Shown here: positions 1-4,870 of the stretch, piece by piece
Position numbering within the stretch: position 1 is the stretch's first letter
Layout of the letters: every line of letters begins with the position of its first letter
NCBI GenBank assembly: GCA_020161435.1
Contig: JAIUNV010000001.1
Coordinates: forward strand, 62,001 to 126,000
DNA: 64,000 nt
Origin: Bacteroidota bacterium
GTDB lineage: Bacteria; Bacteroidota; Bacteroidia; Chitinophagales; Chitinophagaceae
Direction of reading: 5' to 3'
Translations under genes and position numbers: made by a program
The notes under the pieces: generated by a model
The model's input: only the letters and a program-made list of their open reading frames with translations
Told to the model about the DNA's origin: nothing
Database searches by the model: none

Positions 1-793
1 CAATGCCCATATCCATGCCGGCTTTAATGGCATGATACAAGAACACACTGTGCATCGCTTCACGAACGTGATCGTTGCCACGGAAAGAAAACGACAGGTT
101 GCTCACACCACCACTTACTTTGGTCAAAGGCATCAACTGTTTGATGCGGCGGGTAGCATTGATGAAATCAACCCCATAGTTGTTGTGCTCTTCGAGGCCG
201 GTGGCTACGGCAAAAATGTTGGGGTCGAAAATGATGTCCTGCGGATCGAAGCCCACTTGCTCAGTGAGAATTTTATACGCCCGGTGGCAGATTTCCACTT
301 TGCGGTCTTCGGTATCAGCCTGGCCCACTTCGTCGAATGCCATTACAATCACCGCAGCGCCATAGTCGCGGCAGATGTATGCCTGCTCTATGAACTTGGC
401 TTCGCCTTCCTTCATCGAAATAGAGTTGACGATGCACTTGCCTTGTACGCATTTCAAACCCGCTTCAATAATCTCAAACTTAGAAGAATCGATCATGACG
501 GGAATGCGGGCTATGTCGGGTTCGCTTTGCAACAGGTTGAGGAAAGTAACCATGGCCTGTACCCCATCGAGCAGGGCATCGTCCATGTTTACGTCGATGA
601 TTTGGGCACCGTTTTCTACCTGCTGGCGGGCTACGCTCAGGGCTTCTTCGTATTTGTTTTCCCGTATGAGACGGGCAAACATTTTGGAACCCGTTACATT
701 GGTTCTTTCACCAACGTTTACAAAGTTCGTTTCGGGCCGAACCACCAAAGGTTCGAGGCCGGCTAAGCGGAGGTATGGTTTGATGACAGTCAT
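1..793 (-). CDS. metH: Methionine synthase, pterin/cobalamin part (N-terminal portion, cut by window edge)
   Basis: This is the second half of a split cobalamin-dependent methionine synthase, which transfers a methyl group from methyltetrahydrofolate via B12 to homocysteine. About 264 codons are visible; the gene continues past base 1. The N-terminus reads [20 protein letters not shown] followed by [10 protein letters not shown], the hallmark start of the pterin-binding domain, and continues with [31 protein letters not shown] and [11 protein letters not shown]. The B12-binding and reactivation domains would lie outside the window. The ATG at 793 is directly before this domain, so the protein begins cleanly at a domain boundary, which argues for a natural split rather than decay. 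The homocysteine-binding half is encoded 490 bp upstream on the same strand. No internal stop is seen in the visible part. Confidence 0.93.
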
Positions 794-800
794 GTTTTTT

Positions 801-841
801 ACCACAGAGGAATCAGAGGTTGGCACAGAGTTGCGCAGAGC
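801..841 (+). repeat. Left arm of imperfect inverted repeat (CACAGAG-type)
   Basis: The sequence begins ACCACAGAGG and contains further CAGAGG and CACAGAG words. It matches, in inverted orientation, the segment at 1230-1269: about 31 of 40 aligned positions agree. The two arms bracket the GxxExxY gene. The same word family recurs at 4737-4870. Confidence 0.8.
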
Positions 842-846
842 AAATC

Positions 847-1221
847 TTAATACACAATTCGTTTGATTCCATCTTTTAAATGTTTACAATGAAAGTTGAG
901 CAGGAGACCAACCTTACAACCAGAAAGTTTCAGGTAAGTGATGACTTGCGCAACATGAACATCCGTTAATGCTTCTACAGCTTTTGTTTCTATTACAACT
1001 TTGTTTTCAACCAAAAGATCTAGTCTGTATCCTACATCCAGTTTCACAGATTCATACATCAGCGGTAGTCCTTTTTCCTTTTCAGTATAAAGACCTGCTT
1101 TGTTTAACTCGTAATACAAGCACTCTTTATAACTTGATTCCAACAAACCTGGCCCTAATGCTGTGTGTACTTTAAATGCACAACCCAATATTTCTTCTGT
1201 TAGCTGATTGATGAATTCCAT
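847..1221 (-). CDS. GxxExxY family protein (PD-(D/E)XK nuclease fold)
   Basis: A 124-residue protein carrying the family signature GLLESSY at residues 25-31. The core of a PD-(D/E)XK-like active site follows: Asp68 in YRLDLLVE and the IETK stretch at 77-80 (Glu78, Lys80), then the helix [10 protein letters not shown]. The length is typical of the family. Members are widely distributed and have no established physiological role; nuclease activity is inferred from the fold. The gene sits alone between the two halves of methionine synthase and is bracketed by inverted CACAGAG-type repeats at 801-841 and 1230-1269, so it looks like a small inserted cassette rather than part of the methionine pathway. 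The ATG at 1221 gives a complete N-terminus ([13 protein letters not shown]). Confidence 0.88.
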
Positions 1222-1229
1222 GTAAATAC

Positions 1230-1269
1230 TTTGTGTGACTCTGTGTGAACCTCAGTTGCCTCTGTGGTT
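1230..1269 (-). repeat. Right arm of imperfect inverted repeat (CACAGAG-type)
   Basis: Read on the minus strand the segment starts ACCACAGAGG and contains GAGGTT, CACAGAGT and CACA words in the same order as the left arm at 801-841. The arm lies between the start of the GxxExxY gene and the end of the upstream homocysteine methyltransferase gene. Confidence 0.8.
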
Positions 1270-1283
1270 AAATGTCTTTATGG

Positions 1284-2300
1284 TTACAAAGCCTTCTCCA
1301 CTACCGGCACTTCTCTCGGCTTCAGGCTTTTGACGTGCTGGGCAATGTGGCGGATGTGGTCGGGTGTGGTGCCGCAGCAACCGCCTACAATGTTTACATA
1401 CCCTTCTTTGGCCCACTCTTCTATAAAGTGAGCCGTTTCGTGTGGTTGTTCGTCGTACTCACCCATGGCGTTGGGCAGGCCGGCGTTGGGGTAAGCACTG
1501 GTGAAGCAGCTGGCAATCTGGCTCAGTTCTTCGATGTGGCTGCGCATTTCCTGCGCCCCCAGGGCACAGTTGAGGCCCACACTCAGCGGACGGGCATGCG
1601 CCACACTGGTGTAAAAAGCTTCCAGCGTTTGACCACTCAGGGTGCGGCCGCTGGCATCGGTAATGGTACCGCTGATGCTGATGGGCAGCTCGGGCTTACC
1701 GCTGTCGCGGAAATATTTTTTCACCGCTACAATAGCCGCCTTGGCATTAAGGGTATCAAAAATGGTTTCGATGAGGAGCAGGTCTACGCCGCCTTCTACC
1801 AATGCCTGCACCTGTGTGTAATAGGCTTCCATGGCTTCGTCGAACCTGAGGGCCCGGTAGCCGGGGTTGTTCACATCGGGGCTGAGCGATAAGGTTTTGT
1901 TCATGGGGCCAATGGCGCCGGCTACAAATTTGGGCGTGGTGTCGCCGGTTTCGGCACGGTACTCTTCAATGGCCTGGCGGGCACATTGGGCAGCGGCTAC
2001 GTTGAGCTCATGTGCAAGGCTTTCCATGCCGTAATCGGCGAGTGATACCACCTGGCAGTTGAAGGTGTTGGTTTCAATAATATCGGCGCCGGCCTGCAGG
2101 TATTGCTTGTGAATGCCCACAATGATGTGCGGCTGCGTAAGGCACAACAGGTCGTTGTTGCCTTTGAGATCGCTGGGCCAATCTTTGAAACGTTCGCCGC
2201 GATAGTCGGCTTCTTCGAGTTTGTGACGCTGTATCATGGTGCCCATGGCGCCATCAATGACTAAAATGCGTTTGCTGAGTTCTTCGCGTATGTTGCTCAT
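1284..2300 (-). CDS. metH: Homocysteine S-methyltransferase domain protein (MetH N-terminal half)
   Basis: A 338-residue protein equivalent to the first domain of MetH, which binds homocysteine and zinc in a TIM barrel. Visible marks are the N-terminal [13 protein letters not shown], the substrate-loop motif ETNTFNCQ, the first zinc-ligand region [11 protein letters not shown] and the paired cysteines of the C-terminal [13 protein letters not shown]. It stops shortly after this motif, where a full-length MetH would run into the pterin domain. I chose the ATG at 2300 ([11 protein letters not shown]); the open frame extends 49 codons further upstream but that part resembles no protein. The partner half starts at 793. 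Splitting of MetH into these two polypeptides occurs elsewhere in Bacteroidota, so activity is expected if both halves are made. Confidence 0.93.
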
Positions 2301-2333
2301 AGTATGTTCAGGTTTGCACTGCAGCTGAAGTGT

Positions 2334-2349
2334 CCCGATAGCTATCGGG
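2334..2349. repeat. Perfect 16-bp palindrome CCCGATAGCTATCGGG
   Basis: The 16 bases are exactly self-complementary, and the flanks (GTGT before, GACAC after) extend the pairing with one unpaired base. It lies 34 bp upstream of the chosen start at 2300, so it would form a hairpin in the 5' leader of that transcript. From memory this word is frequent in intergenic DNA of many Bacteroidota; copy number in this genome cannot be judged from one window. Confidence 0.75.
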
Positions 2350-2487
2350 AGACACAACCGGTGCTGTAAAGTAGTACCACTGCTTGTGACCACAGTATTA
2401 AAATGCTGAACTATAAACGAGGGAAAATCCGGAGTGGAAGTACACATCGTTTATTAGTTCGGTGAAGATGCTGTTTCGTTTGTGGTG

Positions 2488-4694: not shown

Positions 4695-4736
4695 GAATTG
4701 GGGCGCAAGATAAGTTGAATTGATAGCAAGTTTTTA

Positions 4737-4870
4737 ACCACAGAGGGAAAGGAGGCGGGCACAGCGGAACATGGAGGATTTTTTTTGAACCACTAACTCT
4801 CAAAGATTACACAAGAAGCACAAAGCTTTTACCACAGAGGAAATGGAGGTAAGAGCAGAAGAACACGGAG
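4737..4870. repeat. Three degenerate tandem units of the CACAGAG-type repeat
   Basis: Units begin at about 4737 (ACCACAGAGGGAAAGGAGG), 4788 (a strongly diverged unit, ACCACTAACTCTCAAAG) and 4831 (ACCACAGAGGAAATGGAGG), spaced about 43-51 bp. They share the word family that flanks the GxxExxY gene at 801-1269, but no such gene lies between them. The region separates recR from the Ig-like lipoprotein and holds no credible coding sequence. Confidence 0.75.

Follow-up and report, generated by a model that had tools for sequence, protein, structure and literature searches.

The GxxExxY gene that lies between the two halves of the split methionine synthase gene metH is probably (at roughly 60%, by our own estimate) the coding part of a compact mobile element, in which a PD-(D/E)XK nuclease recognises the inverted arms on either side of its own gene. 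The cassette, its mobility and the pairing of gene and arms are well supported by comparison of sequences: gene and arms are present at some sites and absent from the corresponding sites of relatives, arms also occur without the gene, and the word from which the arms are built changes together with the clade of the protein. The nuclease as the agent of the movement, and its mode of action, are parts that we infer. The window, meaning the whole stretch of DNA that was analysed (64,000 nucleotides, G000:C1:62001-126000), belongs to a genome of 4.19 Mb (G000) and holds the features listed here.

2-793, minus strand: metH2, the pterin-binding half of methionine synthase onward; ATG at 793, runs off the window
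797-840, plus strand: left arm, downstream of the GxxExxY gene; inverted repeat with 1229-1272, four CACAGAG-like words about 10 nt apart
847-1221, minus strand: GxxExxY gene, 124 aa, predicted PD-(D/E)XK nuclease (D68, E78, K80); PF13366, TIGR04256
1229-1272, minus strand: right arm, upstream of the GxxExxY gene and adjoining the metH1 stop; inverted repeat with 797-840
1284-2447, minus strand: metH1, the homocysteine-binding half of methionine synthase; listed frame, with the protein match starting near 2300
4733-4776, plus strand: arm copy without a gene, repeat family D1
4827-4870, plus strand: second gene-less arm copy, family D1; 94 nt on from the copy at 4733-4776 and in the same orientation

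The metH1 stop and the metH2 start are 490 nt apart with GxxExxY as the sole gene inside, just as an earlier note on this DNA had described the gap. The imperfect inverted repeats that it placed at 801-841 and 1230-1269 (about 31 of 40 matching) are real and were redefined as the arms 797-840 and 1229-1272, which are 44 nt long, 77% complementary and 388 nt apart. Its claim of a split at a domain boundary agrees with the coverage of the metH model (positions 1-325 by metH1, 319-583 onward by metH2), and the gene-less arms that it saw at 4737-4870 are the two D1 copies. The idea of a minimal cassette, a single gene with an arm on either side, proved valid beyond the window locus, across the whole GxxExxY gene family.

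The window protein is a full-length GxxExxY/PDDEXK_3 member (TIGR04256, 149.6 bits at a cut-off of 35; PF13366, 142.4 bits at a cut-off of 22), and these family entries give a protein name only. The catalytic residues D68, E78 and K80 are invariant in alignments of 30 and 46 sequences, as are G25 and E28 of the GxxExxY motif. The predicted structure (pLDDT 96.7, pTM 0.88) is nearest in fold to Cas4 SSO0001 (Z 10.4, rmsd 3.1, 98 aligned), followed at Z 6-8 by folds that include Hjc (Z 7.6, rmsd 3.0, 85 aligned), BglII and BamHI. As evidence, the modelled fold goes as far as a nuclease and no further; it is the PD-(D/E)XK fold of Cas4, lambda exonuclease, Hjc and restriction enzymes, to which identity is low, and a shared fold shows no function. 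Foldseek gave no match at E 0.001 or better, solved structures none by sequence at E 1, PHROGs none better than E 0.017, and Pfam and NCBIfam scans matched only PDDEXK_3/GxxExxY and no transposase family. A role as a defence gene was rejected, since PADLOC gave only a Cas4b model at E 0.04 and 12.4 bits. Cas4 carries Fe-S cysteines, whereas the 30-sequence GxxExxY alignment has no invariant Cys. The gene occurs in 101 of 198 genomes of the phylum, often in several copies, and in 39 of 60 genera of the window's bacterial family (0-15 matches per genome), where it is patchy and often decayed.

Most members of the family have inverted flanks. The test sample comprised 60 genomes of the window's bacterial family, one per genus and 39 of them with a GxxExxY gene, in which 98 GxxExxY frames were found and 92 were usable; the upstream flank of each gene was scored against the reverse complement of its downstream flank, with mismatched flanks as the null. 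The score exceeded the 95% point of mismatched flanks for 71 of the 92 genes and the 99% point for 49, and 21 lay below every threshold, compared with 2 of 53 neighbouring ORFs and 2 of 26 metH1 genes above the equal cut-off (71/92 vs 2/53, Fisher p 1.4e-19). A replication set from elsewhere in the phylum, chosen from the match list before any flanks were seen (40 fetched, 39 with full flanks), gave 27 of 39 GxxExxY genes and 3 of 23 neighbours (p 1.9e-5). GxxExxY genes are thus flanked by arms above expectation, as the earlier note had proposed to check. Direct similarity between the flanks was also raised (31/92 above the same threshold), as expected from arrays of repeated words and clustered arms, and the inverted layout is in this respect not always clean. 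Among cross-phylum loci close to the window protein, 58 of 77 lay above the cut-off of the family test and 28 of 77 passed a stricter mismatched-flank control, the lower count being due to words that the arms of different elements have in common.

All five GxxExxY genes of G000 lie at unrelated sites and have inverted flanking repeats, each pair built from its own word (CACAGAGG in the window, CGGAT, a shorter CACAGAGG type, CAGAT and ACGAAT), and the window arm has about 20 further matches across the genome, from weak to strong. Across phyla, 116 arms of the window protein clade mostly contain two to four CRCARAG words each, spaced 9-12 nt in 168 of 212 cases with 10-11-10 and 9-12-9 as the commonest triples, and open with a head, for example TTTAACC or TGTCTGAACC. 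This spacing is near one helical turn, which suggests recognition on one face of the DNA. Among genera with a GxxExxY gene, 20 of 39 show a strict arm pattern, and among those without it 3 of 21 do (p 0.0057; one genome per genus); the reversed pattern, used as a control, was seen in 0 of 60 genomes, so that neither this pattern nor the flank controls show arms that are random with respect to GxxExxY genes. Of 30 loci with the pattern, gene-adjacent ones kept in, 18 could be placed relative to neighbouring genes (9 were unplaced and 3 not located); 8 were tandem, 5 convergent and 5 divergent, hence without orientation bias. For lone arms the partner scores in direct orientation were left unused because they overlap the query.

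Several side observations concern the structure of arms. At two loci (L009 and L016) gene-less arm pairs form palindromes of about 80 bp, several of them in succession in L016 and one in L009 between what we take, from the translations, to be trpB and trpA. In three congeners that have inherited the same element (L005, L365 and L366) the left arm differs in the number of words, and word arrays seem to grow and shrink. In G067, opposite G000:C1:154224, arms of another type with TTGGCA words enclose a lone arm of the GxxExxY type; G000 lacks the insert, and arms are nested in arms here.

Protein clade and arm word change together. For 70 elements (2345 pairs), protein similarity and arm similarity between genomes correlate with a Spearman coefficient of 0.462 (reached in 0 of 2000 permutations), compared with 0.049 for protein similarity and the DNA just outside the arms. 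Vertical descent was rejected as the source of this correlation, because a coefficient of 0.44 remains when pairs at shared sites are left out (0 of 1000 permutations). All 21 proteins that carry the motif G[NST]G[FL]QE have arms built from GATT words, compared with 4 of 49 others. The CRCARAG grammar is mostly kept in loci close to the window protein, from Bacteroidota to Anaerolineales and a Methanosarcinales bin; the named cross-phylum loci come from Bacteroidota, Planctomycetota, Verrucomicrobia-like bins, Acidobacteria, Anaerolineales, Neomarinimicrobiota, proteobacteria and that Methanosarcinales bin, many being metagenome bins in which the taxon labels of single contigs may be wrong. 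The earlier note had tentatively linked the nuclease fold to the spread of the repeats; the co-variation bears out a link between nuclease and arms, and that the nuclease causes the spread is again what we infer.

This co-variation also bears on the view that the arms are the mobile entity, moved in trans by another enzyme, and that GxxExxY is a captured passenger. Gene-less arms do exist, also in the 3 of 21 genomes that have the pattern and lack GxxExxY, and genes of the PF05635 family have a parallel layout built from other words, so such arms need no PD-(D/E)XK gene. Against this view, the arm word follows the protein clade across genera and phyla, the PF05635 arms have a different grammar with a period of 7, and the lone ORF6N and YhcG/DUF1016 genes that occupy the metH gap in four cases are arm-less, scoring only 14-18. 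We therefore regard the passenger view as unlikely.

The history of the metH gap points to repeated arrivals of the cassette. A metH1 match was found in 59 of the 60 sampled genera, nearly always as a short frame of its own, two fragmented cases aside. Among 29 relatives with metH loci, one had no metH2 on the contig; the gaps of the 28 with both halves held a GxxExxY gene in 4, a lone arm in 2, arrays of other words in 1, a YhcG/DUF1016 gene in 2 and only a short gap in 19. The metH split is ancestral and the cassette entered an existing gap. Of the two possibilities raised in the earlier note, use of an existing gap stands, while a cassette that accompanied or caused the split is rejected, because metH1 is separate in nearly all genera and 19 of 28 relatives have the short gap only. 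The same 19 relatives provide the orthologous gaps without a cassette that it had suggested looking for, and a gene carried at this site by all relatives, its counter-case, was not found (4/28).

Within the genus the contents of the gap turn over. G061 carries the same element at 484 of 490 identical nt with flanks at 566 of 597, the element thus being more alike than the metH coding DNA (p 2.9e-4), and G060 carries an 84% relative. In G067 the metH flanks are close to those of G000 (294/300, 98%, and 280/297, 94%) with a different element inside (64% protein identity, CACAAAG words), a further element (53%) is present in G068, G062 and G064 have none, and G065 and G066 have an ORF6N gene. The GxxExxY proteins from metH gaps take four separate positions in the tree, as demanded by supported branches. 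Judged from these sequences, the gap is one that has been filled several times independently, even inside the genus; some of the exchange of elements between congeners could have come about by recombination through the flanks. Arm scores in GxxExxY-filled metH gaps are 26-64 in seven of nine cases, the other two (L049 and L052) being at null level with 20-21. As a separate observation, the gap holds an arm-less YhcG/DUF1016 or ORF6N gene in other relatives (L035, L038, L309 and L310), and the several kinds of lone gene found in it mark it as a hotspot for lone genes.

Mobility is also visible elsewhere. The site of a second G000 element, L005, presumably adjoining ruvX (our reading of the translation), is empty in three congeners (G064, G066 and G068); in G064 and G066 the two genes are 16-20 nt apart, and in G000 arms take up the whole distance between stop and start. 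At the empty L005 sites, which are too diverged, and in the metH comparisons no target-site duplication was legible. Over the 200-264 kb compared between G000 and G067, the differences listed were mostly unrelated indels and included no clean presence or absence of a gene-bearing element. A search of viral contigs gave one related GxxExxY locus only, and phage carriage was rejected on this ground; among 72,556 plasmid records 8 had GxxExxY matches, all below 60% identity.

Another explanation takes the arms to be regulatory or RNA parts of a resident gene (a terminator, a processing hairpin or a long RNA stem of the sort found in rRNA intervening sequences), with vertical descent and transfer by homologous recombination. 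Gene-bearing copies indeed lie in sense right after an upstream stop: in the family 71 copies were scored and 65 assigned, 62 of these having a co-oriented upstream neighbour, and across phyla, with 58 scored, the count was 49 of 54. Pooled, this makes 111 of 119 compared with 97 of 149 generic genes (p 1.9e-8), and the arms often start a few nt from the upstream stop codon or include it. Exchange at one site within a genus may moreover be recombination between flanks. Against this, gene-less arms are scattered over all three orientations, five copies occupy unrelated sites of one genome, the element and its flanks have different histories at the same metH site, and true empty sites exist (L005), which together make this explanation quite unlikely. 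Targeting at the RNA level is likewise not favoured as the cause of the sense orientation, given the lack of bias at the 18 placed loci; the co-orientation may instead reflect selection for read-through expression.

A role for GxxExxY as a free-standing homing endonuclease, with empty sites cut by the enzyme and the gene copied in during repair, is very improbable. The PD-(D/E)XK fold and the repeated occupation of one gap (metH) by different members would suit such an enzyme, but the members within one genome lie at unrelated sites, five in G000, without the single cognate insertion site of a homing endonuclease, the protein clade predicts an arm that is inside the element and missing from the empty site, and gene-less arms spread too. 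Chance proximity of abundant intergenic repeats is barely credible, the arms being dispersed repeats but the controls (2/53 neighbouring ORFs, 2/26 metH1 genes) and the replication (27/39 vs 3/23) effectively ruling it out.

In the compact mobile element that we favour, each arm would be a short array of words, most likely the recognition target of the nuclease; the window arms have about four CACAGAG-like words at a spacing of 9-12 nt. With one word per helical turn or so, an oligomer of the nuclease may bind the array along a single face of the DNA; the enzyme would then cut at or near the arms, after which host repair or recombination would copy the cassette, or the arm pair alone, elsewhere. 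Arms without a gene would be non-autonomous copies, and gene-bearing copies would persist mainly behind the stop of a co-oriented gene, probably owing to read-through expression.

The closest parallel is provided by RAYT genes and REP sequences (REPtrons and REPINs). In two papers on them, a lone nuclease gene lies between inverted cognate extragenic repeats, the repeat type is specific and co-evolves with the gene, gene-less copies occur elsewhere, and RAYT genes are described as mostly single-copy and stationary (PMC3116915, PMC6006769). Like these REPtrons, the GxxExxY gene lies between inverted copies of a dispersed extragenic repeat whose type is specific to the protein subclass. In contrast, GxxExxY belongs to the PD-(D/E)XK nucleases and has no HUH Y1 tyrosine transposase, its arms appear as arrays of 6-8 nt words whereas a REP has a GT[AG]G foot and a single palindromic stem, and, compared with RAYT genes as characterised in those papers, it has several copies per genome in a gene-bearing unit that changes sites. 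With an unrelated catalytic domain it is no member of the RAYT/REP group, and by analogy it may work like one. Insertion sequences and MITEs also resemble the cassette in having one gene between terminal inverted repeats and gene-less pairs of ends; they differ in that GxxExxY elements lack a DDE or HUH transposase, gave no legible target-site duplication in comparisons that include diverged empty sites, and have ends that are word arrays of highly variable sequence between members.

A likeness of a different kind is seen in the 23S rRNA intervening sequences and four-helix-bundle (PF05635) genes, where a short gene also lies between inverted word-array arms. Across the 60 genera, inverted flanks exceeded the same cut-off at 20 of 30 PF05635 loci (L146-L175), with a match of 0.56 at lag 7 and 0.53 at lag 14 over a base of 0.29. 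The PF05635 protein is an unrelated four-helix bundle, whereas the window protein matches only PDDEXK_3 in Pfam, and the PF05635 arms keep a strict period of 7, compared with 9-12 in GxxExxY arms; among 20 elements the correlation of protein and arm was not significant (Spearman 0.152, 74 of 1000 permutations). It is possible, and put forward only tentatively, that these are two unrelated uses of one plan. One would be a new class of mobile DNA, with a stand-alone PD-(D/E)XK nuclease that reads helically phased word arrays and mobilises both the cassette and gene-less arm pairs; the other would be the period-7 four-helix-bundle genes. If true, this would account for a large share of the short interspersed repeats in Bacteroidota and several other phyla.

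A search of the open-licence literature, including the names PF13366, TIGR04256 and PDDEXK_3, found no description of the pairing of GxxExxY genes with arms, and the papers that mention GxxExxY do not deal with repeats. The family is named, occurs in roughly one in two genomes sampled from the phylum and in other phyla, and no stated role was found for it. Pairing with cognate arms gives it a testable role and explains a set of dispersed intergenic repeats, and it adds, beside RAYT/REP, a case of a different nuclease fold tied to the spread of repeats. Since the protein clade predicts the arm word, recognition is directly testable by clade swaps.

Lastly, a palindrome of 15-16 bp, CCCGATAGCTATCGGG, occurs in G000:C1 at 64332 (about 2332 in the window), 195135 and 200880 and is absent at those sites in congener G067. 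The copy at 200880 lies within an arm-like word array, and CCCGATAGCTATCGGG looks like a very small mobile palindrome.
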